Virus record (IMG/VR): IMGVR_UViG_3300029267_003445
Coordinates: 1 to 62,107 of that record
Length of the DNA: 62,107 nucleotides
Origin: a virus
Direction: 5' to 3' (one strand)
Part shown: piece after piece, positions 4,531 to 56,076 of the stretch
How the letters are laid out: the number at the start of each line of letters is the position of its first letter
Numbering within the stretch: the first letter of the stretch is position 1
Notes under the pieces: generated by a model
Told to the model about the DNA's origin: nothing
The model's input: the letters and a program-made list of their open reading frames with translations, nothing else
Databases searched by the model: none
Position numbers and translations under genes: made by a program

Positions 4531-4549
4531 TTTTTTGAGGGAGTTGGTG

Positions 4550-6493
4550 ATGTCTCCTTTCGCAGGATACCCGGATTTTGACGCGTGTGTTGCTGACCAG
4601 AAACAGAAGGGCAAGAGTGACACGGCTGCCCGAAAGATTTGTGGGGCGCTTCAGGCGCGTGTGGAAAAGAGTGCGGAGGACGAGGAGGTACTAACGACCG
4701 GCCCCCTTGCGGACGCGCTGCGGGAGAGTGCCGTGCTCGACGGGGGCGAGGTGGTCATTTCGGAGGCGTTTATCACAGACGAGAATAAAGTGGTCAGCGC
4801 GGACGACGTGGTGCGGGCGGTGATGAAAAAATCGATGCGGGGCATCCCCTCGGATCGCGTTCATAAGGAGGCGAAGAATCTGGGGACGCTGGACGTTGCC
4901 AAAATGGTTGAAGGGTCTACGCAGAGCAAGGCGGAAATCGGTCGAAACGATTTGAAGCTGCACGAGGCGGAGTTTGTGGAGCCCCCGTACCCGCCTGAGT
5001 TGCTGAGCATGTTTTTGGAGGTGGACGAGACACATTATCGGGCATGCAAGGTCAAGGCAACGGACGCGGTAGGTCGCCCGTACACGCTGGAGCCTTCGGA
5101 GGCACCGGACGGCGGGGAATATGATCCGGCAAAGGCGGACGACAAGACGCGGAAGCTCGTGGCGGCTGAGACAAAAGTGATTCGGACATTCATTGAGGAG
5201 TGTAATGGAATCATCGGGTTTGAGGGGACATTAGCACGGGCTGCGATGGATAACGAGGCTGTCGGGTGGGCGGCGCTTGAGGTAATCCGAAATAAGAACA
5301 TGGTCGTGACGAAATTGGCACATATCCCCGCGGTACGCGTGCGCACGTTGCGGGGGTTTGTGGGGTGGGTTGAACTGGTCGGGCCGGAGAGGTACATCTA
5401 CTATCAGCCATTCGGTCACAAGGTACTGAGCAATCGAGACGCTACTCCCGGGCACAAAGACTATTACAATCCGCGGGAGGACGGGCCGTTGGATGCGAAG
5501 AAGTTGACGTGGAACATGGTGGACCGGGAAACAGGCAAGCCGACGCGGAATTTTGGTCGGGCTGCGAATGAAATTGTTTGGGTGCCCCGCCATCATGCGA
5601 ATACGATTTACTATGGTATGACGGACGCACTCCCGGCGATGGGGGACCTGCTGACAAAGGTGCACATCCGAGATTATATCCTACAATATTTTGAACATAA
5701 TACGGTTCCCCGGTACGTCGTGGTGATTGAGGGTGCTAAGCTGTCTGACTCAGTGAAGAAATTGATTTCGGAATATTTCCACACGCATGTGAAAGGCCGC
5801 GCGCACAAGACGCTGGTTGTGCCCATCCCGTCGATGAAGGGGGAGGTGAAGGTTCGGTTTGAAAAACTGGACGCGGAGCTAGAAACGTCTTCATACATGG
5901 CGACGCGGGAAACGAGCAGGGATGGAATTTTGACGGCGCACGGGGTCAGTCCCGCCATCTTGGGTATTGCTGAGAGCAGTGAGCTAGGGAGCGGCAAGGG
6001 GTTGTCGCAAGCTGAAATATACAAGGACCGTATCGTGGAGCCTTCTCAGAGGAGGTGGGCTGACGCGCTCAACCGACTATTTCGGTTGGGGCTTGGCGTG
6101 CGGGTTGTTTCGTTGAAGTTCGATCCCCTGGATATTCGGGATAGAAATATGGAGATGCTGACTCACGTTGGATACGTGGAGCATGCTATTGAAACGCTCA
6201 ACGAGGCGAGACGGGCTCTCGGCTTGGACCCGTATGAGGAGGGCGGGGACCGCGCGTTTATGCTGACCTCTTCGGGACCCATTTTTGTGGACGAGCTTAC
6301 GAAGGAGGCCAGTGCAGAGCGGCAGTCGTTGGAGGATGAAATTGACACGTTGCGTCGGGAGCAGGCGCAGTCCCGGTTGAACAGTATGCGACCCGCGGAT
6401 GCAAGTGGTAAACTACCGAAGACGCCCAAGACGCCCGCCAATCCGGTGACGCAGAAACAGACCCCCGGAAAGAAACAAGGGAAACAACAATGA
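4550..6493 (+). CDS. Portal protein
   Basis: A 647-residue portal of the SPP1/HK97-like superfamily, the dodecameric ring at the capsid vertex through which DNA passes. Supporting features are its position after terL, the sequences NEIVWVPRHHANTIYYGMTDALPAMGD and YYGMTDALPA typical of portals, and GSGKGLSQAEIYKDRIVEP before a helical C terminus. An N-terminal extension (FAGYPDFDACVADQ ... AARKICGAL) resembles a small domain seen on several phage head proteins. I choose ATG 4550 after GAGGGAG; an upstream start at 4535 lacks a site. The C terminus is Lys, Pro and Gln rich. It overlaps the next gene by ATGA. Confidence 0.88.
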   Translation: MSPFAGYPDFDACVADQKQKGKSDTAARKICGALQARVEKSAEDEEVLTTGPLADALRESAVLDGGEVVISEAFITDENKVVSADDVVRAVMKKSMRGIPSDRVHKEAKNLGTLDVAKMVEGSTQSKAEIGRNDLKLHEAEFVEPPYPPELLSMFLEVDETHYRACKVKATDAVGRPYTLEPSEAPDGGEYDPAKADDKTRKLVAAETKVIRTFIEECNGIIGFEGTLARAAMDNEAVGWAALEVIRNKNMVVTKLAHIPAVRVRTLRGFVGWVELVGPERYIYYQPFGHKVLSNRDATPGHKDYYNPREDGPLDAKKLTWNMVDRETGKPTRNFGRAANEIVWVPRHHANTIYYGMTDALPAMGDLLTKVHIRDYILQYFEHNTVPRYVVVIEGAKLSDSVKKLISEYFHTHVKGRAHKTLVVPIPSMKGEVKVRFEKLDAELETSSYMATRETSRDGILTAHGVSPAILGIAESSELGSGKGLSQAEIYKDRIVEPSQRRWADALNRLFRLGLGVRVVSLKFDPLDIRDRNMEMLTHVGYVEHAIETLNEARRALGLDPYEEGGDRAFMLTSSGPIFVDELTKEASAERQSLEDEIDTLRREQAQSRLNSMRPADASGKLPKTPKTPANPVTQKQTPGKKQGKQQ

Positions 6494-7074
6494 AAGATAC
6501 AAGAAGAGAAGTAGTGGACACGGTGTTGCGTCTGGACACGTTGAAGGAGTTGCCCGGCAACGCAAATTTGCACAACGCAAGAAACAAGGCGGCAATCCGG
6601 TTCTCGCTCGAAAAGTTCGGACAGGTGGAGCCGCTCGTGGTGCAAAAGAGCACGCAACACGTTATCGGCGGCAACGGGCGTCTCGCGGTGATGCGCGAAA
6701 TGGGGTGGATCGACGCGGAGTGCAAGATTATCGACGTAGACGACGCCACGGCGCAGGCGCTAGCGCTGGCTCTAAATCGGACTAGTGAGCTGTCCGTGTG
6801 GGATAACGAACTGCTGAGCGAGACTATGTTTTCCTTGCGGGACGAGGGGTGGGACCTGACCGCGCTTGGCTGGGAGGAGCATGAGTACGAGCCTCTTTTG
6901 GCGGCGGAATGGTCCCCGCCCGAGATTGAGCCGTTGCCGGAGGCGGTGTCGGCCCCGACGAAACACGTGGTAGAGTTCACCCCGGAGCAATGGGCTGTCG
7001 TGGATTCCTATTTGCCGGGCACGGGCTCGGACGCGGAGCGAATCGTTGCCTTCTTTGGGGAGGGCGATAAGTGA
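6490..7074 (+). CDS. ParB/sulfiredoxin-like nuclease domain protein
   Basis: A 194-residue protein whose first 100 residues fit the ParB-like domain: GQVEPLVVQ, then HVIGGNGRLAVMREMGW (the GxxR box) and ALALNRTSEL. ParB-like phage proteins bind or nick DNA and are often next to DNA-modification or packaging genes. The C-terminal half is acidic and carries HVVEFTPEQWAVV. It is coupled to portal (ATGA) and to the DpdA-like gene (GTGA overlap at 7071), so it probably works with the modification cassette. The exact role is unknown. Confidence 0.75.
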   Translation: MKDTRREVVDTVLRLDTLKELPGNANLHNARNKAAIRFSLEKFGQVEPLVVQKSTQHVIGGNGRLAVMREMGWIDAECKIIDVDDATAQALALALNRTSELSVWDNELLSETMFSLRDEGWDLTALGWEEHEYEPLLAAEWSPPEIEPLPEAVSAPTKHVVEFTPEQWAVVDSYLPGTGSDAERIVAFFGEGDK

Positions 7075-7802
7075 CCTCCATTCGTTTAGCGTACGGCGGA
7101 CCGCCCGAGGCGCTGGCGAAGGGGTTGACAGGAACACCTGAGCCCTCTTTGCTGGTGTCCTACGTTTATCTGGACATGTTTTTGAAGCAGAGGCATCGTT
7201 ATAATTTTCGTGATTGGGTGATGGACTCGGGTGCGTTCTCTGCGTTCAATAGTGGTACGGAAATCAAATTGCAAGACTATATTGACGTATGCAAGAAGTT
7301 GAAGGCCACGGACCCGAAGCTCACCCATGTTTTCAGCTTGGACGTGATTGGGGATTGGCGGGGCACGCTAAAGAATACGGAGGAGATGTGGCGACAGGGG
7401 GTGGAGGCGATTCCCACGTTTCATTTCGGAACCCCGGAAAAAGAGCTGTATAGTTTAGCGCGCGACTACCCTCGGATTGCGCTCGGCGGCATTTCTGGAA
7501 AGCACGGCAAGGAGTGGTATCGTTTTGTCGGGCAATGTTTCGCCCGGGTCTGGCCGAAGTGGATACACGGGTTCGGCGTTGGGGGAGAAAAGGAAGTCTT
7601 TTTCGTGCCCTGGTCTTCGGTGGATGCGACGAATTGGGAGTTGGGGCCGTGCAAGTTCGGCCGTTGGAAAACGTTTGGCGGGTTGTCGGTGCGCGGGGGC
7701 AAGCACAATCTTCGCGTGGAGGTGGAGTGGTGGTTGGACTTTGAGCGACGTGCTCAATACCGATGGCGTCGGGAAATGGAAACCGTGAGGAAACTGAAAT
7801 GA
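7071..7802 (+). CDS. dpdA: DpdA-like DNA guanine transglycosylase
   Basis: A 243-residue protein related to tRNA-guanine transglycosylase and to the DpdA enzymes that swap guanine for a 7-deazaguanine base in DNA. Visible signatures: VMDSGAFSAF (Asp52, the substrate-binding Asp of TGT), FSLDVIGD, RIALGGISG (the TGT GG loop), IHGFGVGGE and SSVDATNW (Asp185, candidate nucleophile). It is shorter than tRNA TGTs and is followed directly by preQ0 synthesis genes, arguing for DNA as substrate. GTG start overlapping the previous stop. It most likely inserts preQ0 or a derivative into the phage genome. Confidence 0.85.
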   Translation: MTSIRLAYGGPPEALAKGLTGTPEPSLLVSYVYLDMFLKQRHRYNFRDWVMDSGAFSAFNSGTEIKLQDYIDVCKKLKATDPKLTHVFSLDVIGDWRGTLKNTEEMWRQGVEAIPTFHFGTPEKELYSLARDYPRIALGGISGKHGKEWYRFVGQCFARVWPKWIHGFGVGGEKEVFFVPWSSVDATNWELGPCKFGRWKTFGGLSVRGGKHNLRVEVEWWLDFERRAQYRWRREMETVRKLK

Positions 7803-8695
7803 CGATTGACCTAAATACACTCCCTTCGGGGGAGCGGTACGCGGATGAATACGGTGCGTGGCTGGAGGTCTGGCGGCAGATCGCTGAGGAACCCGGTGTT
7901 GTGGTGAAGAGCCCTCCGCATAGCTGGATTCCACTGGCGCGTTATTTGGGAGCAACCGTGCGGGGGAGCTTTGCGCATTTTTTGCAAGACTCGTACTATC
8001 GCAACGCGAACGAGATGTACGACCATGCGAAGGCCTACGGCCGTCAGCGGGAGTATGTGGAATCGGTGTGCACGGCTCGGCCGGAGCTGGTTGACGCGTT
8101 GTGGAAGAGCGACGTGCAATGGCAGACGGTTGATCGGGACCATACGTGGCAGCGGGAGTTCGTGTTGACGAACTATAACGGGTATTATCGACCCGAGATT
8201 TTGGAGTATATGAAAAAGCTAGAGGAGTACGTACCTCCCGCACGCGTGCGAAATTGCGTTGTGACCAGTTGTTCCGCGGATAAGCCATATCCGGCGGACG
8301 TGCATCGGGCGGTACTCGATATTCTGCCGGACGAGTCGTGGCATCTTGTTATCGCCACGGGCGTGCTCGGTGTCGTGCCTCAAGAACTCTGGGGTGTGAT
8401 GCCGTTGTACGATGCGGGCATCCCAAATAATTGGAGATGCTTTCAAAAGTGGTGTCGGTACGCGCAGCGGATAAAGTACGATAGGATTGTTGTGTACGCA
8501 GATTTTTATGCTCCCGCGGTGCACGCGGCGCTCTCCTCTGTACTGGCGGATACTGCGGTGTCCTATCCTTTACCCGTGGGCGGGCGGGCGGATTATTTGG
8601 ACCTTGCGGACGAGAGGTGGCTAAATCATTTACGGCGCGCGTTGGAGTGTAGTCCTGCGGATGCCGGTTCTTTTAAGTCGGGGATACTATTATGA
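7799..8695 (+). CDS. ArcS/DUF5591-like deazaguanine-modifying protein
   Basis: A 298-residue protein. Residues about 150-270 resemble the DUF5591 domain of archaeosine synthase Arc[20 protein letters not shown], then [11 protein letters not shown], then a Tyr/Asp-containing segment and [16 protein letters not shown]. In archaea ArcS converts the nitrile of preQ0 in tRNA toward archaeosine. The N-terminal 150 residues are unfamiliar. It is sandwiched with ATGA overlaps between the DpdA-like gene and queC, so it probably alters the deazaguanine side chain in DNA or its precursor. It could instead be an accessory DNA-binding subunit. The domain call is from pattern recall only. Confidence 0.68.
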
Positions 8696-9348
8696 AAATT
8701 GTGCTCATCTATTCCGGGGGGCTGGACTCCACGGTGTTGCTCTATTCCTATCTAGCTCAGGAGGCCGAAGTGAAGGCGCTGAGCATCAATTACGGGCAGC
8801 GACATCAGAAGGAGTTGCGCGCCGCGGGTCGCATTTGCCGGGACAACGGAGTGCCCTTTTCCATCGTGGACATTGGCGCTGTTGGCGCGTTATTGCAGTC
8901 AAGTTTGACGGATAGAAAAATAGATGTTCCCGACGGGCACTACGCGGAAGAGTCTATGAAACAGACTGTTGTGCCTAACAGAAATATGATTATGCTTTCG
9001 CTTGCAATCGGGCACGCGTGTTCTTTGAAGTACGATGCGGTCGCATACGCGGCGCACGCTGGGGATCACACAATATACCCCGATTGTCGCCCCGCATTCG
9101 TGGACGCGATGGCAGAGGCGGCGCGGTTGTGTGATTGGCACCCCGTTGAAATCGCCCGCCCGTTTATCACCAAGACAAAGGCAGACATTGCGGCGCTTGG
9201 ACATGCGCTGGACGTGCCCTTTGCGGATACGTGGTCTTGCTATAAAGGCGGGGAGCGTCATTGCGGCACGTGCGGCACGTGCGTGGAACGACGAGAGGCG
9301 TTTGAGTTGGCAAAAGTACCAGACCCAACGGAGTATGAAAATGAATAG
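8692..9348 (+). CDS. queC: QueC, 7-cyano-7-deazaguanine (preQ0) synthase
   Basis: A 218-residue ATP-dependent enzyme converting 7-carboxy-7-deazaguanine to preQ0. It has the PP-loop [12 protein letters not shown] near the N terminus, the [10 protein letters not shown] helix, PNRNMIML and [16 protein letters not shown] substrate loops, and a C-terminal zinc site [20 protein letters not shown]. Length and all motifs are normal, so it should be active. There is no amidotransferase fusion as seen in some phages. The start overlaps the upstream stop by ATGA; the end overlaps queD by eight bases. Confidence 0.95.
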
Positions 9349-9766
9349 CGTGACAGTGACAAAGCGTTTTGAGTTTGACGCGGCTCATCGATTGTATCAG
9401 CACGAGGGGGCGTGTCGGCACGTGCACGGGCATCACTACGTCGTGGAGGTAGAGGTGGCGGGGCCGTCGTTGAATTATCTTGGCATGCTCATTGATTTTG
9501 GGGAGTTGAAGCAGCGGGTGGGCGATTGGATACAAGAGCACTGGGACCACGCGACGCTTCTCAATAATGCGGACACGGTATTATTTGAGGCTTTGGAAGA
9601 GATGAATAGTACGCTTTATCTGTTTGATGGGAACCCCACGGCCGAGAAGATGGCGGTTGAGCTGTTTACACAAGTACGCGAATTGTTGAAACATACTCCC
9701 GTGGTCCCCCGGCGGGTGCGCGTGTGGGAGACACCGGACAGTTTCGCGGAGTATCGGGAGGGATAA
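9341..9766 (+). CDS. queD: QueD, 6-carboxytetrahydropterin synthase
   Basis: A 141-residue member of the PTPS family that makes 6-carboxy-tetrahydropterin from dihydroneopterin triphosphate. The zinc histidines are in FDAAHRL and GHHYVVEV, the catalytic Cys in [10 protein letters not shown], and the C-terminal [13 protein letters not shown] is diagnostic. ATG 9341 is preferred over ATG 9335 because the ACGGAG site (9328-9333) is seven bases upstream of it. It overlaps queC by eight bases. Confidence 0.94.
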
Positions 9767-9768
9767 TA

Positions 9769-10374
9769 GTGTCTAAAAAGTACGCCATCAGCGAGATTTT
9801 CTATTCCCTTCAGGGGGAGGGCGTACGCGCGGGAACTGCCTCGGTGTTTGTACGCTTCTCTGGATGCAATTTGCGATGTACCGTTGCGACGGAGGGGTTT
9901 GATTGTGATACGGACCACTCATGCAACCATGTCATGTCGGGGCGGGAAATTGCGGCCGAGTGCGCGAAATACATGTCGGAAGAGACGCCTCGGTGGGTGG
10001 TGTTCACGGGCGGGGAGCCTGCGATGCAGTTGGACGCGGACCTTGTTCATATCTTCCGCGCCCGGGGGTGGCATCTTGCCGTGGAAACGAATGGCTCGCT
10101 TCCGTTGCCGGAGGGGTTGGATTGGATCACCGTGAGCCCGCGGCGGCAAGCGATTCAAGTGCTCTCGGGGGTGAGTGAGGTGAAGTGCGTTGTGGGGGCG
10201 GAAGGGACACTGCCGGATGTTGGTAGATTGCGCCCGGGGTATCGTCTAATCAGTCCCGCATTCAACGGCCCGGACCCGGACCCGGCTGCGATTGCTCGAT
10301 GCGTTCAGTTAGTAAAGGAGAATCCAAAATGGCGGCTGTCAATACAGCTCCACAAGTTTCTTCACATCCAGTGA
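9769..10374 (+). CDS. queE: QueE, 7-carboxy-7-deazaguanine synthase (radical SAM)
   Basis: A 201-residue radical SAM enzyme forming the deazapurine ring. Signatures: IFYSLQGEG, FVRFSGCNLRC followed by GFDCDTD (iron-sulfur cysteines spaced CX3CX8C rather than the usual CX3CX2C, a known kind of QueE variation), VVFTGGEPAMQ and VETNGS. GTG start at 9769 follows CGGGAGGG. The C terminus SIQLHKFLHIQ matches QueE ends. Its last 46 bases overlap the folE fusion gene. Confidence 0.93.
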   Translation: MSKKYAISEIFYSLQGEGVRAGTASVFVRFSGCNLRCTVATEGFDCDTDHSCNHVMSGREIAAECAKYMSEETPRWVVFTGGEPAMQLDADLVHIFRARGWHLAVETNGSLPLPEGLDWITVSPRRQAIQVLSGVSEVKCVVGAEGTLPDVGRLRPGYRLISPAFNGPDPDPAAIARCVQLVKENPKWRLSIQLHKFLHIQ

Positions 10375-11252
10375 GGAGAATTACGTGGGCGGAGTTTACT
10401 AGAGACTGCGGTGGGCTGGTAGAGGAGATTCGCCGCGCCGGTTTGCGTGTTTCTGGTGTTTTTGGCGTACCGAGTGGGGGTTGTCACGTGGCGCAAATAG
10501 TTGCGCATGCTTTGGAGGTGCCCGTACTGGACGAGCCTGAGCGGGATTGTGTGGTAGTGGACGATTTGATTGATAGCGGGAAGACGATACAATCCTACTC
10601 GGCGCGCGGGCACATGTGCTTGACCTTATATCGCAAGCCGCATAGTCCGCCGGGTTATGGTATCCGTACGCTTTCGGGGTGGCTTCAGTTTCCATGGGAG
10701 CATTCGGGACGCCCGGAGGACGCGGTGACTCGATTGTTGGAGTTTATTGGGGAGGACCCCACCCGGGACGGTTTGATAAAGACGCCCGAACGTGTGTGCC
10801 GCGCGTTCGCGGAAATGACGGCCGGTTATGCGCAGACTGCGAAGGACATATTGGGTACGGTTTTCGAGACGGAGTATGACCAAGTTATCATGCTTCGGGA
10901 CATCCAGTTTTCAAGTCTGTGTGAGCATCACATGCTACCGTTCAGCGGGCTTGCGACGGTTGCCTATCTGCCGGGGACGGGTAAAGTGGTCGGTATTTCT
11001 AAACTCGCTCGGCTCGTGCAGATGCATGCGAAGCGGTTGCAGATACAGGAGCGTATGACTTCGGACATCGCGGATGACGTAATGAATATTTTGTCTGCGA
11101 AGGGCGCGGCCGTGATTATACGTGCAAAACATCTTTGCATGGGATGCCGGGGCATCAAAGACCCCGTTGCGAGCATGGTGACAAGTGAAATGCGTGGGCT
11201 GTTTCGGGAAGACGCAACGGCACGCGCTGAGCTTTTTTCTCTTGAGAAGTAA
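10329..11252 (+). CDS. folE: Phosphoribosyltransferase-GTP cyclohydrolase I fusion
   Basis: A 307-residue two-domain protein. Residues about 20-110 look like a xanthine-guanine phosphoribosyltransferase: ITWAEFTRDCGGL, FGVPSGGCHVAQIVAHAL, and the PRPP loop CVVVDDLIDSGKT around residues 73-86. Residues about 127-307 are a complete FolE: GEDPTRDGLIKTPERV, SLCEHHMLPF (Cys198), GISKLARLVQMHAKRLQIQE and AKHLCMGCRGI. FolE makes dihydroneopterin triphosphate, the first step of preQ0 synthesis. The N-terminal domain might recycle guanine or xanthine to feed the GTP pool (inference). ATG 10329 is supported by AAAGGAG at 10315-10321; no frameshift separates the domains. Confidence 0.9.
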   Translation: MAAVNTAPQVSSHPVRRITWAEFTRDCGGLVEEIRRAGLRVSGVFGVPSGGCHVAQIVAHALEVPVLDEPERDCVVVDDLIDSGKTIQSYSARGHMCLTLYRKPHSPPGYGIRTLSGWLQFPWEHSGRPEDAVTRLLEFIGEDPTRDGLIKTPERVCRAFAEMTAGYAQTAKDILGTVFETEYDQVIMLRDIQFSSLCEHHMLPFSGLATVAYLPGTGKVVGISKLARLVQMHAKRLQIQERMTSDIADDVMNILSAKGAAVIIRAKHLCMGCRGIKDPVASMVTSEMRGLFREDATARAELFSLEK

Positions 11253-11253
11253 T

Positions 11254-13131
11254 GTGGTCGCAATCCAAGACAAGCTAGAGCGTTCTTTCGCCCATGACGT
11301 GACGCGTTTTCTGCGGGCGCGTTTTGAGGAGATGGCGACGAAGTTGCGCCCCTATTTGCGGCGTGTGCGGCGGGATCGCCTCTCCGTTGTGGCGGGGTAT
11401 TCTCGCGGAGTAGATAGGCGGCGGGCTGCGGACGCTTACCTTTTCGATCTGTTGGCACCGCTTGCAGATACTTTGATTAGCGACGAGGCGCAAACGGTCT
11501 TTGAGTTGCTTATTTTTCGGCATTTGCGGGCGGCATACGAGGCCGGGGCGGTGGATGCGCTTCACCGCATGGGATTTGAGGCGTCCGTTGTCGATAATCG
11601 CCGCCGAACGGTTGCGAAAGCGGCTGCGGACCCCATTATTTTCGAGCTGTCGGACCCCGAAATTATTGCCGCACTTGAGGAGCGTGCTCGTATTGTAGGG
11701 GCGGGCCTCACTCCGGCAATGTTAGGCGACGCGCGGCGGCTTGTTCGGGATAAAATGGTGTTCGGGGACCTCGGTGCACACCAGACAGCGACGCAGATTG
11801 CGGCCGGGGCTGGGATTCCGCACTGGAGAGGCTTGAAAATCGCTAGAACGGAGGCCGGACAGGCGTTTAACGGCGCGACTTTCGAGCAGTATTATCGGTC
11901 CGGGGTAAGGATGAAGGCGTGGCACACCGTTGGGGATAACCGTGTGCGGGACGATCACACTATGAACGCGGCGGAGGGCTATATTCCAATCGGAAACGCC
12001 TTTGGAAATGGTGAAATGTATCCCGGGAGCGGCTCTATCAATTGCCGGTGCGCTTTGCTGGCAGATATGCGGGACCCGAAGCTGGTTTTAACCCCGTGGT
12101 CGGGTAACGCAGGGGCGTATCTCGGCCCGACGTTGCCGATAGCCCCGCTGCCCGCGCCGACAGCGAGCGGCATTTCTCCTCAAATGCTTGCGCGCTTGCG
12201 GGCGGTTTCGTCGCCCGTGTCTAAGCCGAAGTTTCTCGGGCCTCTCGGTAAGAAGGTGGGAACAATACAATCGCAAATTGATTTGATTAGGGATAAGCTG
12301 AAGGAGCACGCCGACGATGTGGCATATACTTCGCATCTAAAACGGCGGCTCACTAAGCTGGAAAAACGATTGGTAGATGTGCAACAGGGCACTCTGCCGG
12401 GCAAGGTCAAAGCGATTGAGCTTATCGAAATCAAAGGTAAGAGTCCCGTTTCCCCCGAGTTCAAGGCGAGAGTCGTGAAGCATTTAGACTCGTTGCCGCA
12501 GAAGGACTTGGCACGCATAAAGAAAGCCGGGATCAAAGTACGCCTCGGTCATCACATGGATGAGGCGTTGCCGCGGGTGAAGGGTATGACACCCCGGGGC
12601 TATCCAGCGGGGACTAAGTTTAACGAAATCGAGGGGTTGTTTTCGCCTACGGAGAATCGGATTGTCTTGACGGAGTATAAACAGGATTGGGCGTCTACGC
12701 GGCTCACGAAGGCATATCTAAGCCCCGGTCGGCTCTCTACCACGGTACGACATGAGGTAGGTCATGCAATAGATAAGGCGCTGACAATACGGCCGGAGGG
12801 CGGCGGTAGAATTATTGCTTCGCAGCAAGCGAAGTATTCGGCGCAGTATCGTCAGGAGTTCGTCAAAATCATAAAGGAGACTGGATCGGAGCTGACGGAG
12901 ACGGGGTATACGTTGCACGGCTCTGCGCGTATAATTTCTTATGAGCTTCAGCCAAATCCATCCGCGCTTAAGTGGGGCGGTTCGGGAGCGACAGACGCCG
13001 GTGCGTCTGAGATGTTTGCGGAGTTATATGCGCATCTCCGCGGTGGCGCAGCGAATCGAAGTGGGGGGCCTATTTACGCGGGCCGTTTTTCCAAGACGTT
13101 GGCAGTGGTGAAGGACATGATAGGGGGTTAA
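11254..13131 (+). CDS. MuF-like minor head protein with C-terminal zincin domain
   Basis: A 625-residue protein. Residues about 170-290 are the Mu gpF/SPP1 gp7 domain (IARTEAGQAFNGATFEQYY, KAWHTVGDNRVRDDHTMNA, PGSGSINCRCALL), a minor capsid protein often injected with DNA. After a linker and coiled coil, residues about 420-625 hold a predicted metallopeptidase: GLFSPTENRIVLTEY, HEVGH at 500-504 and a later EMFAELYAHL supplying a third ligand, resembling the lethal-factor-like zincin fold. GTG 11254, one base after the folE stop, is the likely start; the site is weak. The zincin may act in the host after injection or in head maturation. Confidence 0.82.
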   Translation: MVAIQDKLERSFAHDVTRFLRARFEEMATKLRPYLRRVRRDRLSVVAGYSRGVDRRRAADAYLFDLLAPLADTLISDEAQTVFELLIFRHLRAAYEAGAVDALHRMGFEASVVDNRRRTVAKAAADPIIFELSDPEIIAALEERARIVGAGLTPAMLGDARRLVRDKMVFGDLGAHQTATQIAAGAGIPHWRGLKIARTEAGQAFNGATFEQYYRSGVRMKAWHTVGDNRVRDDHTMNAAEGYIPIGNAFGNGEMYPGSGSINCRCALLADMRDPKLVLTPWSGNAGAYLGPTLPIAPLPAPTASGISPQMLARLRAVSSPVSKPKFLGPLGKKVGTIQSQIDLIRDKLKEHADDVAYTSHLKRRLTKLEKRLVDVQQGTLPGKVKAIELIEIKGKSPVSPEFKARVVKHLDSLPQKDLARIKKAGIKVRLGHHMDEALPRVKGMTPRGYPAGTKFNEIEGLFSPTENRIVLTEYKQDWASTRLTKAYLSPGRLSTTVRHEVGHAIDKALTIRPEGGGRIIASQQAKYSAQYRQEFVKIIKETGSELTETGYTLHGSARIISYELQPNPSALKWGGSGATDAGASEMFAELYAHLRGGAANRSGGPIYAGRFSKTLAVVKDMIGG

Positions 13132-13137
13132 AGGACA

Positions 13138-13317
13138 ATGACATTATTTATTTCGCTTTATGAGAATATGGTGGGCGTGCGTTGTCCCAGTCCTGGTCCC
13201 ATCAAAGCGGACACGGAGTATGAGGTCCACCCGACGCAAGTTTTCCATGGGTACTCGTACGAAGAGCTGCGAGCAATGGGCGAAGGCATGTTTGAAGTAC
13301 CCGTGAGGGAGGGCTGA
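13138..13317 (+). CDS. Small hypothetical protein
   Basis: A 59-residue frame, MTLFISLYENMVGVRCPSPG, preceded by AAAGGACA at 13130-13137 and ending two bases before the next small ORF. The pattern (short beta-rich segment, then VHPTQVFHGYSYEELRAMG) resembles small phage proteins found among head genes, but I know no function. Confidence 0.6.
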   Translation: MTLFISLYENMVGVRCPSPGPIKADTEYEVHPTQVFHGYSYEELRAMGEGMFEVPVREG

Positions 13318-35786: not shown

Positions 35787-37610
35787 ATGGCGAAAGTATT
35801 GTGGCTCTCGGAGTCTATGCAGATGCCGTCCGGGTTCGGGCAACAAACGAAACTCGTTTGCGAAGGATTGGCAAAGCAGGGGCATGATGTGACGGTAATA
35901 TGTCAGGCCGGGCCGAAGTTCAAGGGTAAGCTTCCGCCGAACTTGCGGGAGTGGCGTTTTGATTGTATCTATGACGTTGCACTTGTGGAGCGATTGGCGG
36001 AGAAGCTTCGCCCGGACGTAGTGGTGATTTTCTGGTGCCTGACCATCAATAACATGATGCTTCAAGTGCCGACCGTACCCGCGAACGCGGAATTGTGCGT
36101 GTGGATGCCGTGGGAAGGAACGTCCTTGCCCGAGGGGCACGAGGCGTTGAGTTGCGTGCCCCCTGGTCGGTTCGTGCACTTGTCTCAGTATTCGCAGAAG
36201 CTCTGGTCGCCGTCGGTGGAGTCGAATGTCATAATACCGCACGGGGTTGCGACGGATGAGTTTGAGTATATGTCACATAAACGGCGATCACAGGCGCGGA
36301 AAGAACTGAGAGCGGTGTGGGGACGCCGGTTGCGGCACTCTTTTTCGGAGAGCGATATAATCTTGTTGAACGTGGATCGTAACACCCATCACAAGATGTG
36401 GGACGCCACCTTTGACATCGCCCGCCGTGTAAAGCGGGAGGGACATGACGTGGTGCTAGTGGCACACACGCGCCGCGGGGCCGGGGCAACGATTGAGGGG
36501 CGTCGGTCAGGTGAGATTGGGTATGATTTACCCAAGATGGAGAAACTGTACGGCTTGGAGGGCGACGTATGCTACACCGATTTTGATTGGGGCAACGGCA
36601 TGACCCGCCGCGACCTCGCCGGGCTATACCACCTCTGTGATTTTCGCATCTCGACTTCGCTCGGGGAGGGTTTTGGCATTCCCACGGCGGAGGCGGCGGC
36701 GTGCGGTACCCCGCAGATTTTGAATGCCACCACCACCCTCCCCGAAGTGGTGGGCGACCCCGACTCCCCCTGGTTGGTGCCTCCGAGTACCCTAATCTCG
36801 CGGTCTAACGACCTTTGGGGCATGCCGGACGCGGCGGCAATGGCGCAGAGGCTCTTAGAGCTGGTAAATGCTCCGTCTCGCGTCGCTACGGCGGCTCAAA
36901 AGGCCAAGAGGCATTGTTGCGCCGAGTTTGCCGAGCCTCGCGTACAATCGCTCTGGGGGGCTTATATTCAAGAGCTGGCGAGCGGACGCGCCATCGGTAG
37001 GGCCGGGTTGGAGGGCAGCAAGAAAGGGTCCGACCTTTGGTACGCACATCGGCGGGGGTGGGGGTACCGGCAGAAGGCGCTCGCTACGTTGGCGGCGGCA
37101 GTGGAGACGGTGAAGCGGCTTGTGGGGCCGGGGACCGTGTTGGAGGTGGGGAGTTTCGACGGTGTGTTTTTGGAAATGGCGTTGGAGCACAATATCGACA
37201 TCACGGGCATCGAGCCTGATCCCCGGTCCCGGGAGCGTTGCACGGAGCGGGCGCGCACGTTTCTCGAATCTGCGTCAATCGGATATAATGATGTTTGGCC
37301 CGAGGCCGCTTGTGTTGTGGCGACGGATATTTGGGATTTGGTTACCTCTGCCGCGACTCAAAACGTGCTTGACCATATCGCAGCCTACGAGTGGGCGGTG
37401 TTGCGGTTTCAGCGGAGCGGCGTGTGGGGGCGGGGCCGGGTTTCGGCGGAGTTGTGTCGGGCGCGTTTGAAGGACCGCGGCATGACTCGTCGGGAAGACT
37501 TGGAGCGTATGATACGAAAGAATTTTGCCGAGCATTTAGAGCACGAAATTTGGATGCGCGGTTCCGATACATCTAATATCCCCGCTGGGGTACGCACGGG
37601 AGGAAAGTAA
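35787..37610 (+). CDS. GT4 glycosyltransferase-methyltransferase fusion
   Basis: A 607-residue protein with two catalytic domains. Residues about 1-400 are a GT-B enzyme of the GT4 type: LSESMQMPSGFGQQTKLVCE, IIPHGVATDEF, RNTHHKMWDATFDIARR and the donor motif STSLGEGFGIPTAEAAACGT. Residues about 420-607 form a SAM methyltransferase: WGYRQKALATLAAAVETV, GTVLEVGSFDGVFLEMAL, TGIEPDPRSRERC. A single polypeptide could transfer a sugar and methyl-cap it. The reading frame is continuous, so this is a real fusion. Confidence 0.8.
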   Translation: MAKVLWLSESMQMPSGFGQQTKLVCEGLAKQGHDVTVICQAGPKFKGKLPPNLREWRFDCIYDVALVERLAEKLRPDVVVIFWCLTINNMMLQVPTVPANAELCVWMPWEGTSLPEGHEALSCVPPGRFVHLSQYSQKLWSPSVESNVIIPHGVATDEFEYMSHKRRSQARKELRAVWGRRLRHSFSESDIILLNVDRNTHHKMWDATFDIARRVKREGHDVVLVAHTRRGAGATIEGRRSGEIGYDLPKMEKLYGLEGDVCYTDFDWGNGMTRRDLAGLYHLCDFRISTSLGEGFGIPTAEAAACGTPQILNATTTLPEVVGDPDSPWLVPPSTLISRSNDLWGMPDAAAMAQRLLELVNAPSRVATAAQKAKRHCCAEFAEPRVQSLWGAYIQELASGRAIGRAGLEGSKKGSDLWYAHRRGWGYRQKALATLAAAVETVKRLVGPGTVLEVGSFDGVFLEMALEHNIDITGIEPDPRSRERCTERARTFLESASIGYNDVWPEAACVVATDIWDLVTSAATQNVLDHIAAYEWAVLRFQRSGVWGRGRVSAELCRARLKDRGMTRREDLERMIRKNFAEHLEHEIWMRGSDTSNIPAGVRTGGK

Positions 37611-42290: not shown

Positions 42291-43123
42291 ACCGGGACCT
42301 TGCAAAAGTATTTCATAGCGAGCAGGCCAAATCCCTATCGCCTACCTCTATCCTCGTGTATTGCCTGATGCTCACAGATGTATTTGCGCAATACTCCCCC
42401 GGTGCACGTGCGTGCAAGGGCTCGGGAATGCTTATCTCCGATATTGGGCGGCGGGAGCTGGAGATGCGGTGTGGCGGCGGGGAAGGGACCAGGAGGTTAC
42501 CGTATGCCCTCCGCGCATTGATTGAGGCGGGGTGGATAAAAGAGGTTTCCGGGGGTCGGTATTCTTTGGGGGAGACGAAAGACGGGTTGCAATGGTATGC
42601 TCTGGGGGAGAAGAAAACACCGCGGACTGCCGGAGCCGAGAAGGTACTTGCGGCGGCTCGTCGGGGAGCGGAGAGGCTCGCTAAGGAGGCGAAAGAAGCG
42701 CGGAAGCGGCGAGCGGCGTGGCCGCGGCGGCGAGCGGCGCGGGAGGAGTTGAAAACCCCGGCCCTTTCCGTGTTTCTGAGTCATCGTTTCCGGGAGCTGT
42801 TCGGGGCAACGTTCAAAACAACTCCCAGCGACCTACCGACTCGCAAGATGCAGAATATTTACATGCATCAATTCTCAAAATACTTGGATGAAAACGAGGA
42901 GGAGTGCGAGGCGTTCCTTGTGTGGTTCTTCACGCGATGGGACGACATCTGTACGGCATGGGGGATAGTCGGGCATCGCCCCCGGATGCGATTGCTTGCG
43001 AGTAAAAGGATGGTTCAGCAATTGCAAAAGTGGCGAACGTCTGGTTTTAAGGCGCGGGAGTCCGTTGTGGCTGATCGGGCGGATGCGGAAAAGATTACGG
43101 CGGCAAAGGACAGGGGGTGGTGA
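42287..43123 (+). CDS. Replication initiator-like winged-helix protein
   Basis: A 278-residue protein. Residues about 20-95 look like a winged helix (SPTSILVYCLMLTDVFAQYS ... RRLPYALRALIEAGWIKEVSGGRYSL). A basic Ala/Arg/Lys-rich linker follows, then a helical C-terminal domain. Such proteins sit before helicase loader and helicase genes, as here, and open the origin or recruit the loader (like DnaD or lambda O). Palindrome site 6 is inside. Identity inferred from context and fold pattern. Confidence 0.6.
   Translation: MNRDLAKVFHSEQAKSLSPTSILVYCLMLTDVFAQYSPGARACKGSGMLISDIGRRELEMRCGGGEGTRRLPYALRALIEAGWIKEVSGGRYSLGETKDGLQWYALGEKKTPRTAGAEKVLAAARRGAERLAKEAKEARKRRAAWPRRRAAREELKTPALSVFLSHRFRELFGATFKTTPSDLPTRKMQNIYMHQFSKYLDENEEECEAFLVWFFTRWDDICTAWGIVGHRPRMRLLASKRMVQQLQKWRTSGFKARESVVADRADAEKITAAKDRGW
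42402..42417. promoter_or_regulatory. 16-bp palindrome, site 6 (intragenic)
   Basis: GTGCACGTGCGTGCAA inside the initiator-like gene. Phage origins are often in the initiator gene, so this copy could also act near an origin (speculation). Confidence 0.6.
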
Positions 43124-43851
43124 TGGCGGTATGGTATGCATCCCCTTATTTTTGTGAGGAGGCGCTAGTCCGGGCGCGGCATCTGTATCTAGGTGAGGCG
43201 GTGTCTGTTTTCGTGTGGGGCGAGAGTGACGTGACCACGCAAGGGGACCCAAATCCTTACCATTTTCCCGAGAGCGAAAAAGAAGCTAACGTGCTGACGT
43301 TGCGGGTGCCCCAAATCAGCGAGGACCCGCGGGAGCAGGAGGACCTGACATTTCAAACGTGGGCGACGTATGTTGCCGCGCAGTGTCAGGATGAGGACTT
43401 GATAATTTTATCGGACGCGGACGAGCTGATTCGCCGGGAGGCAATAACGCAAGCGAACGAGCAGTGCGTGACTTATTTGACCCTCCAACAATATTATTTT
43501 TGTTACCATCCCTCCTATCTACGGCAAGTGAGTTGGAGGTGCGCTAAAGTCTTTCGGGGCCGTTTTTTAAAATCGCTCCTCCGGCAGGGGGTTCTTCTGC
43601 ACGTGTTTCGACACCTGAAATACGAACACCCGTTGCGGGATGCGGGGTGGCACTTGACAAATTTCGGCGGCTCGGAAATGGTGGCGGTAAAGCATCGCAG
43701 TTTTCGGCACGCGAAGGAAAACCGGCTGTCCTATGAGGAGGGGATGCGCACGATGAAGACCCCGGCGGGGCATCCGCTTGTTCGTGTAAATCCGCTGGAT
43801 TATTTCCCCTCGAACCTATTAGACCTGTTGGAGGTGGGGTATGCTCACTGA
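43123..43851 (+). CDS. GT17-like glycosyltransferase
   Basis: A 242-residue protein of the GT17 (beta-1,4-mannosyl-glycoprotein N-acetylglucosaminyltransferase) type: YFCEEALVRARHLYLGEAVS, LIILSDADELIRREA (metal-binding acidic motif near residue 95), VSWRCAKVFRG and DAGWHLTNFGGSEMVAVK. Start ATG 43123 overlaps the initiator-like stop; two GTG codons just upstream are alternatives. It is embedded between the initiator-like gene and helicase loader, an odd place for a sugar transferase. DNA, protein or glycan could be the acceptor. Confidence 0.78.
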   Translation: MAVWYASPYFCEEALVRARHLYLGEAVSVFVWGESDVTTQGDPNPYHFPESEKEANVLTLRVPQISEDPREQEDLTFQTWATYVAAQCQDEDLIILSDADELIRREAITQANEQCVTYLTLQQYYFCYHPSYLRQVSWRCAKVFRGRFLKSLLRQGVLLHVFRHLKYEHPLRDAGWHLTNFGGSEMVAVKHRSFRHAKENRLSYEEGMRTMKTPAGHPLVRVNPLDYFPSNLLDLLEVGYAH

Positions 43852-47872: not shown

Positions 47873-47896
47873 TACATCAAATGTCTCCTGATGTGG

Positions 47897-47936
47897 GGCG
47901 GTGTGCGTCGTATGGGGCGCACATCGCCTTTCTTTT
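47897..47936 (+). terminator. Rho-independent terminator
   Basis: GGCGGTGTGCG (47897-47907) pairs with CGCACATCGCC (47918-47928), 11 bp with one G-U pair and a ten-base loop, followed by TTTCTTTT. Palindrome site 7 begins directly after the T run. Confidence 0.88.
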
Positions 47937-47952
47937 CTGCAAGCGCGTGCAA
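47937..47952. promoter_or_regulatory. 16-bp palindrome variant, site 7
   Basis: CTGCAAGCGCGTGCAA, 14 of 16 bases of site 1, between the terminator T run and the methyltransferase ribosome site. It is identical to site 8. Confidence 0.65.
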
Positions 47953-47965
47953 CCCGGAGGATACC

Positions 47966-48766
47966 ATGTCTACGACGGTAGTGGTGGGTGATTTTAGAGA
48001 GAAGAAAGATCGGCTCGCTGATGGAGTGGCGCAGCTCGTATTCACGGACCCGCCCTTTAATATTGGGCACCCGTATGTCGGGTTCAGCGATGTTATGGAG
48101 GGGCGGGAATACCGTACTCTTATTTCAAACATCGTCCAGGAGGCGTGGCGATGTCTCACCCCGGGCGGGCGTTTTTGTATGCACGTGCCTGACGAGGTGG
48201 TGTTGCCCGTGTTGGAGGACGCACGTTTTTGGGGGATGTTGCCATCGGACTGGATTGTGTGGCACTATCGTTTCGGGCAGTGTGGAAAAACAAAATACAT
48301 CAACAGCAAGTGCCACCTCTTAACGTTCTTGAAACCGGGCGGTGTCCCCGTGTGGAACCCGGACGATGTGCTAGTGGCAAGTGACCGGGCCTCCACGTAT
48401 GAAGACCCGCGAACAAAAGAGACGGCGACCCCCGGCAAGCGCGTTCCGTTGGACGTTTGGGGGATTCCCAGCGACGGGCCGTATTGGGGCCGGGTTCAAG
48501 GTAACTCGAAGGAGCGTCGCAGCGTGAAAAACGGGGCTCTCGTCGATCACCCCAATCAGTTGCCCGAGGTGTACTTAGAGCGAGTGATACGGGGTTGGAC
48601 AAACCCCGGCGATTTGGTTGTGGACTTTTGCGGCGGTTCGGGAACGACGGCCGTGGTTGCCAAGGCTCTCGGGCGTGCATCTTGTACGTTTGAGATTTCT
48701 TCTGATAATGCGGCAAGTATTATGCAACGATTGGAAAAAGGAGCGGTCCGTGTCCCTAGTTACTGA
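47966..48766 (+). CDS. DNA adenine/cytosine methyltransferase, beta class
   Basis: A 266-residue amino-methyltransferase. Catalytic motif IV is VFTDPPFNIGHPYVGF at residue about 26, and the SAM motif FxGxG occurs later as VVDFCGGSGTTAVVAKALGR, the order of beta-class enzymes. It also has HPNQLPEVYLERVIRGW, typical of this group. It would methylate N6-adenine or N4-cytosine in phage DNA. No restriction partner is adjacent. ATG 47966 follows CGGAGGA; a longer upstream start would cross the terminator. The end overlaps the polymerase gene. Confidence 0.85.
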   Translation: MSTTVVVGDFREKKDRLADGVAQLVFTDPPFNIGHPYVGFSDVMEGREYRTLISNIVQEAWRCLTPGGRFCMHVPDEVVLPVLEDARFWGMLPSDWIVWHYRFGQCGKTKYINSKCHLLTFLKPGGVPVWNPDDVLVASDRASTYEDPRTKETATPGKRVPLDVWGIPSDGPYWGRVQGNSKERRSVKNGALVDHPNQLPEVYLERVIRGWTNPGDLVVDFCGGSGTTAVVAKALGRASCTFEISSDNAASIMQRLEKGAVRVPSY

Positions 48767-54700: not shown

Positions 54701-54989
54701 TGATTTACCGAACGCCACTACATCGACCCGCGAATCGCAAAACAACCGTCGGCCGTCGACTACTTGCCGCCCCTCGACTTGTTGTCGAAAAAGTAGCGGG
54801 ACGCCGGGCGCGAACCGGACGGAGCCCTTTTGTCGGAACGGATTCCGCGCGATGGTAATCCCCCCGACGCAAAAGCAGTTAAAGCGGATGAAAGTGAAAC
54901 GGAACGACCCTTGCCCTTGTGGCAGCGGGAAAAAATTCAAGAAGTGCCACATGAGAGGCGCACAAAACACCGGACGACGGCAACGGTGA
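54690..54989 (+). CDS. SEC-C zinc motif protein
   Basis: A 99-residue protein with a C-terminal [18 protein letters not shown], an excellent SEC-C motif (the zinc-binding tail of SecA). The first 70 residues are low complexity with scattered Cys. SEC-C domains mediate ribosome or protein contacts, so it may be an adaptor. It overlaps the nuclease gene. Confidence 0.72.
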
Positions 54990-55001
54990 TGGAGGGAGCA
55001 A

Positions 55002-55214
55002 GTGAACCAACGAGAAGCAACCCGAATCGCTCACGGGATGGTGTATCAGGTAATCGACAATCTGCTAACCAATTGTGAGCGGGAAGACCTGCCGCCCGAC
55101 GATGTGGTCCGAATTGACCGAGCGCTGGACCGTATGGCCCAATCTCACTTTGAACTATCGAACCTGATCGAGCGCACACCGATCAGTTTATCCGGTAGTG
55201 GAGGGGAAGCATGA
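55002..55214 (+). CDS. Small hypothetical protein
   Basis: A 70-residue helical protein (MNQREATRIAHGMVYQVIDN) starting at GTG with GGAGGGAG upstream. It overlaps the next small ORF by ATGA. No family recognised. Confidence 0.55.
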   Translation: MNQREATRIAHGMVYQVIDNLLTNCEREDLPPDDVVRIDRALDRMAQSHFELSNLIERTPISLSGSGGEA

Positions 55215-55342
55215 AAAACCTCGATAACGACAACCGATTGTTTAGGCTGAAAGGTGCGCGCCTATCGCGTTGTGTTTTTGGCCGCGAACTTGTCGTCGCG
55301 CACTTTCATCCCGCCAACCCACGAAGGACCCCAGGCCCATGA
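55211..55342 (+). CDS. Small basic ORF
   Basis: A 43-codon frame, MKNLDNDNRLFRLKGARLSR, between two coupled genes, overlapping both by four bases (ATGA at 55211 and at 55339). The even spacing and GAGGGGAAGC ribosome site support it, though it is short and unrecognised. Confidence 0.42.
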   Translation: MKNLDNDNRLFRLKGARLSRCVFGRELVVAHFHPANPRRTPGP

Positions 55343-56076
55343 ACGACTACACAATCGAACCCGACTACGACCACCACGGCAACCCTGACGGTTTCGTTTT
55401 ACTGTCGCTACCGCGTTCCGGGACACACATGCTCCGCACGGCATTGAACGCGCACCCTCATGTCTGGTGTTGCCATGAGGTATTCAACCGTGATGTATAC
55501 GGCAAGTTGAAACGGCGGGGCGTGGGCGTGGGCGGCAGAGACGCGCCGTGGGATGGCGAGCCGGTTGCTGTCTATTTTCATAGATTGCAGCGCGTTGGTC
55601 AGGATCGCTTCGGCGTGTGCGTGCAACCCCATCATTTTCAAAAGCGCCGGGCCGGGTTTGAGGAAATGCTGGCGATGGAGTTGCCCACTATTTTGCTGTA
55701 TCGTCTCAATACGCTTCGCCAGTACGTGTCGAGGCTGCAAGCGCGTGCAAGGGGAAAATGGGAAGCGTATCAAGGGGACCCACCCCCGCAACCGATAAAA
55801 GTAGCGGTGGAGCATGCTGCGTACGAGCAGTTTCATTACGAGCAGCGGGAGGCCGTGGCAACCCTTGCGGCGAGGTGCCCGCGGCTGATTGCTCTCACCT
55901 ACGAGGAGCTGATAGCCGATTGGGCGGGCGGTATGCGGCGGGTGTTTGCGGGCATTGGAGTCGCTCCCTGTAAAGTGGCACCGCAGACGATTAAAGTGGG
56001 TGCCGGTTTCCTGGAAAATGCCGTAGATAATTGGGCGGAAGTGGTCAAATGGGCACAACCGGGCGAGAAAATCTAA
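55339..56076 (+). CDS. Sulfotransferase-like protein
   Basis: A 245-residue protein with the PAPS-binding loop VLLSLPRSGTHMLRTALNAH at residues 20-39 and the 3'-phosphate-binding segment ILLYRLNTLRQYVSRLQAR. A second acidic His-containing region (HPHVWCCHEVFN) matches bacterial sulfotransferases. It could add sulfate to a host or phage glycan. The gene starts in the previous stop. Palindrome site 8 lies in the middle. An AT-rich promoter region follows. Confidence 0.8.
   Translation: MNDYTIEPDYDHHGNPDGFVLLSLPRSGTHMLRTALNAHPHVWCCHEVFNRDVYGKLKRRGVGVGGRDAPWDGEPVAVYFHRLQRVGQDRFGVCVQPHHFQKRRAGFEEMLAMELPTILLYRLNTLRQYVSRLQARARGKWEAYQGDPPPQPIKVAVEHAAYEQFHYEQREAVATLAARCPRLIALTYEELIADWAGGMRRVFAGIGVAPCKVAPQTIKVGAGFLENAVDNWAEVVKWAQPGEKI
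55735..55750. promoter_or_regulatory. 16-bp palindrome variant, site 8 (intragenic)
   Basis: CTGCAAGCGCGTGCAA inside the sulfotransferase gene, identical to site 7. Confidence 0.55.

Follow-up and report, generated by a model that had tools for sequence, protein, structure and literature searches.

Which base does a phage make in its DNA when its 7-deazaguanine genes are joined by a relative of archaeal ArcS, and how did such genes come to lie between two head genes? 7-Deazaguanine systems block many restriction enzymes, and the steps past preQ0 are just partly known. FolE, QueD, QueE and QueC produce preQ0, which DpdA puts into phage DNA, protecting it from restriction (PMC6884629). Cassettes without an amidotransferase yield dPreQ0, and those with Gat-QueC yield dG+ (PMC6884629). 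We analyzed a linear virus fragment of 62,107 bases, referred to in its entirety as the window, in which a cassette of this known kind has a compact, ArcS-bearing form. This form is a new variation, and the ArcS-like step is rarely seen.

A 7-deazaguanine cassette between portal and MuF

The cassette spans positions 6490–11252. From portal through MuF every gene lies on the + strand and overlaps its neighbor or is separated from it by 1–2 bases, with four-base overlaps at the portal/ParB, ParB/DpdA, DpdA/ArcS and ArcS/QueC junctions. The portal gene on the left flank (4535–6493; PF04860, 2e-12; phrog_2662, 1.9e-22) is followed by genes for a ParB-like protein of 194 residues (6490–7074; phrog_620, 4e-31; phrog_498, 9e-30), a DpdA-type DNA-guanine transglycosylase of 243 residues (7071–7802; phrog_887, 2e-28) and an ArcS-like (DUF5591) protein of 298 residues (7799–8695; NF040592, 4e-17; PF17884, 3.5e-8). 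The preQ0 genes come next: QueC, the 7-cyano-7-deazaguanine synthase (8692–9348; PF06508, 8e-65; TIGR00364, above cut-off), QueD, the 6-carboxytetrahydropterin synthase (9341–9766; PF01242, 4e-35; TIGR03367, above cut-off), QueE (9769–10374; TIGR04508, 4e-45, below cut-off; phrog_2076, 2e-28; alignment) and a phosphoribosyltransferase-like domain fused to FolE, the GTP cyclohydrolase I (10329–11252; PF01227, 2e-68; PF00156, 3e-5). A MuF-like head protein (11254–13131; PF04233, 4e-7; phrog_2468, 8e-18) forms the right flank. Since E-values reach 2e-68 and the motifs are intact, a chance origin of these matches is excluded.

Family searches and motifs bear out the position and gene content that the first-pass annotation gave for the cassette, including a complete route from GTP to preQ0 together with DpdA. 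Its named genes were all found, but it had missed the ArcS-like gene and the phosphoribosyltransferase-like domain on FolE. The window thus has both hallmarks of phage 7-deazaguanine DNA modification systems, the preQ0 gene set and a DpdA with conserved catalytic motifs. In an alignment with 12 other phage DpdA proteins, the motifs DSGAF, LDVIGD, HGFG and SSVDATNW are intact, and the window DpdA is 60% and 50% identical to those of contigs L009 and L010. QueC retains its PP-loop and zinc cysteines, and the N-terminal domain of the FolE fusion retains its PRPP loop (VVVDDLIDSGKT). This fusion is common among 7-deazaguanine phages and is therefore ordinary.

Several features of these enzymes vary between phages. 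In the window QueE (9769–10374) the cysteine spacing is C-x3-C-x8-C, as against C-x3-C-x2-C in the majority of the phage QueE proteins with which it was compared. Tandem pairs of DpdA paralogues lie within the preQ0 cassettes of L011 (6303–7795) and L012 (8001–9518). In L016 (13335–14672), an intein with an HNH endonuclease domain splits the FolE gene near the CEHH catalytic site.

We compared the cassette to actinophage preQ0 cassettes of the Quesadilla, Sonali, Bipper and Rosebush type, which share its overlapping genes and its gene order, headed by a ParB or DNA-binding gene. Mycobacterium phage Quesadilla shares the order ParB-DpdA-QueC-QueD-QueE-FolE with Arthrobacter phage Sonali; Bipper shows it too, though with gaps. 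Gene order thus shows the block to be a known module that was not assembled here and is not peculiar to this phage. The actinophage cassettes lie beside the terminase or at the genome end, whereas that of the window lies between portal and MuF. Unlike the window, Quesadilla, Sonali and Bipper lack an ArcS-like gene, and their FolE, judged by length and alignment, lacks the fused phosphoribosyltransferase domain.

The ArcS-like protein

The product of the gene lying between DpdA and QueC is a relative of archaeal ArcS, and its putative function is assigned from the following features. It has the DUF5591 core with the ArcS motif, here C158-x3-K162-P-Y...H169, in which the archaeal motif serine is replaced by alanine. 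Across 13 aligned members of the family, all of which match the ArcS model, the cysteine and KPY are invariant and the histidine is lost in one. The window protein scores 62 bits against an equivalog cut-off of 440 and matches positions 223–361 of 575 in NF040592; this low score arises because most of the long archaeal protein is absent. A weak match to TIGR00432 covers positions 321–437.

The family profile matches archaeal AF0587 (PDB 2q07) at 1e-5, with both motifs in register except for a one-residue gap. AF2 prediction of the window protein from the 13-sequence alignment gave a pLDDT of 85 and a pTM of 0.77, compared to a pLDDT of just 39 for the single-sequence fold. The sole significant PDB match to this model is again AF0587 (2q07; E 6e-4, probability 1.00, though with TM-scores of just 0.37–0.40). 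Two viral proteins also match significantly: A0A7S5T4B6, which has 320 residues and 39% identity to the window protein, and the DUF5591 protein of Vibrio phage nt-1 (probability 1.00). From its length and identity, A0A7S5T4B6 is probably the GR11A protein.

Comparison with archaeal ArcS, which works with RaSEA, reveals a common DUF5591 core, the C-x3-KPY motif and the preQ0 nitrile as presumed target. The window protein differs in that its target would be DNA and not tRNA, in its missing long flanking parts, and in that RaSEA was not found. Like the window, phage nt-1 carries preQ0 genes along with a gene for a DpdA-type enzyme, and its DUF5591 protein shares the fold. However, nt-1 uses DpdA2, and its DUF5591 protein, a distant relative of the window protein, no longer has the motif lysine and histidine (CTTTRPYENSRKW).

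Linkage of ArcS-like genes to QueC

Relatives of the ArcS-like protein were found in Vibrio phages GR11A and GR7B and in 15 IMG/VR contigs, at 31–53% identity, amounting to 15 non-identical phage records besides the window (L013 resembles L014 over most of its length, and L029 and L030 look like one phage). The family was not found in plasmids, nor, with the patterns tried, in bacterial or archaeal genome contigs. All 17 ArcS-like-encoding records searched, a small set in which two are apparently the same phage, also encode QueC. This linkage is not circular, because the ArcS protein query carries no QueC information. A phrog_887-type DpdA is present in 10 of the 17. The cassette of L028 starts in the identical order ParB-DpdA-ArcS, while in L014 and L016 the ArcS-like gene lies apart from a full-length DpdA. 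With DpdA and the ArcS-like gene as neighbors in the window, and QueC in all related records searched, the role of phage ArcS becomes directly testable.

The large phages GR11A and GR7B encode an ArcS-like protein approximately 40% identical to that of the window, adjoining QueC, and a profile search found no phrog_887 DpdA in them. Unlike the window cassette, their cluster also includes an acetyltransferase, together with a radical SAM gene of the KamA type.

KamA-type (lysine 2,3-aminomutase-like) genes lie beside ArcS-like genes in three records, L002 (14856–16476), L003 (14875–16508) and L031 (15037–16170), in each case within a phage cluster that holds ArcS-like and QueC genes. An acetyltransferase adjoins KamA in L002 and L003. 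These KamA genes are possibly linked to amino-acid decoration of the base. We considered them as evidence for a β-lysine adduct, but the link is only suggestive, since Pseudomonas phage Aura carries KamA and QueC without an ArcS-like gene.

We searched for the archaeal partner of ArcS with the specific RaSEA model (TIGR01210). By homology, RaSEA was not found in the window, in its overlapping sister contig or in any record searched, these records being incomplete; the ArcS-RaSEA pair of the archaeosine pathway is not seen in them. Three archaeal controls scored above the cut-off in the same search. A general radical SAM model run on the window missed the known QueE, and that search is therefore not counted as evidence of absence.

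Predicted pathway and product

We propose that the cassette is a DNA hypermodification operon, and place the probability of this reading at roughly 0.7. From their families and intact motifs, FolE, QueD, QueE and QueC would convert GTP to preQ0, which DpdA, by homology to proven DpdA enzymes, would exchange for guanines of the replicated phage DNA. The conserved cysteine of the ArcS-like protein would then attack the nitrile of preQ0, presumably within DNA, and transfer of an amine would give an amidine base. With no RaSEA partner found, two products are predicted. Ammonia or glutamine as donor would give plain dG+, whereas an enzyme acting as the lysine transferase that ArcS is known to be would leave an amine adduct, such as preQ0-lysine, in place. 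Lysine transfer to preQ0 has been shown for euryarchaeal ArcS, which accepts even the free nucleoside; RaSEA is required to convert the lysine adduct into G+, and the adduct also blocks reverse exchange (PMC11298593). Work cited in the same paper reports that Methanocaldococcus jannaschii ArcS uses NH4+, Asn or Gln directly. The cassette, translationally coupled to the portal gene in the head operon, would be expressed late, in keeping with a base exchange that follows replication. The likeliest benefit would be resistance to host restriction enzymes, and the protective role that the first-pass annotation ascribed to such systems is indeed established (PMC6884629).

The preQ0 route of that annotation stands, but the pathway would go further, as the ArcS-like gene had been overlooked. 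With that gene present, dPreQ0 alone is an unlikely end product. It would be the outcome, as in Rosebush and CAjan, if the ArcS-like protein were inactive or otherwise employed, and core cassettes without ArcS do occur in the close DpdA relatives L009–L012 and also in Quesadilla and Sonali, such core sets yielding dPreQ0 (PMC6884629). However, the retention of the cysteine, KPY and, save for one loss, the histidine in 13 diverse members, and of QueC in every searched record with an ArcS-like gene, argues against this. Less probable again is hydrolysis or amidation of the nitrile to dADG, in the manner of bacterial DpdC. Hutinet and colleagues proposed this for phage ArcS, and traces of dADG occur in nt-1 (PMC6884629), but the motif follows ArcS, and family searches recognized no DpdC-like gene in the cassette. 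Finally, the short DpdA, the overlap of its gene with the ArcS-like gene and the TIGR00432 match might suggest a non-catalytic helper taking the place of the domain located after the archaeal TGT catalytic core, a reading that we consider very improbable given the conserved putative catalytic motif and the full-length DpdA encoded away from this gene in L014 and L016.

Within the proposed amidine-forming pathway, we raise tentatively, and with the odds against it, that such phages contain a new DNA base, a 7-deazaguanine amidine bearing lysine or another amine and kept as such in the absence of RaSEA. The base predicted from the cassette has possibly been overlooked so far, as standard assays would not seek it, and an amine-bearing form would escape targeted mass spectrometry for known bases. 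It could also account for the composition of the ArcS phage nt-1, in which only traces of dPreQ0, dADG and dG+ are present and the known bases sum to ~0.16% of G (Table 2, PMC6884629). These low values would reflect a main product that was not looked for, a weak pathway or an inactive, divergent ArcS.

A probable insertion site

We compared the locus to three relatives with similar heads. L042, with a 71% identical major capsid protein, has no cassette and its portal gene overlaps MuF, which supports insertion of the cassette between head genes. In L037 (terminase 58%, capsid 73%) a protease gene directly follows the portal. In L041 (capsid 82% identical; portal beyond the contig end) a ParB-N6/N4 methylase fusion and a D12-type methylase lie just upstream of MuF, at 399–2872, and the ParB part of the fusion is 51% identical to the window ParB. 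This arrangement supports a site to the left of MuF that appears to take DNA-modification modules, with a ParB-like domain that would travel with varied modifying enzymes. The portal–MuF slot, with the methylase genes beside MuF in L041, thus hints at an exchange site for such modules.

The first-pass annotation regarded the block as late-acquired and tied to packaging. Acquisition agrees with the relative that lacks the cassette at this site, but composition gives no support for a recent date, since GC and third-position GC equal those of the neighboring genes. A tie to packaging agrees with the position and translational coupling, and goes no further than these two.

Sister contig L038 begins at window position 13236, just right of MuF and hence outside the cassette. 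Apart from approximately 670 bases of the window (54706–55379) that it lacks, sister contig L038/L044 is nearly identical to the window. The C-terminal domain of the window MuF protein (11254–13131) weakly matches the metallopeptidase family PF07737, below cut-off, and the MuF C-terminal domains of L042 (1495–5273) differ from it, as in MuF-type polymorphic proteins. Elsewhere, the phage encodes two glycosyltransferase-like proteins, a sulfotransferase-like protein and an N6/N4 DNA methylase (35787–37610, 43117–43851, 55270–56076 and 47891–48766).
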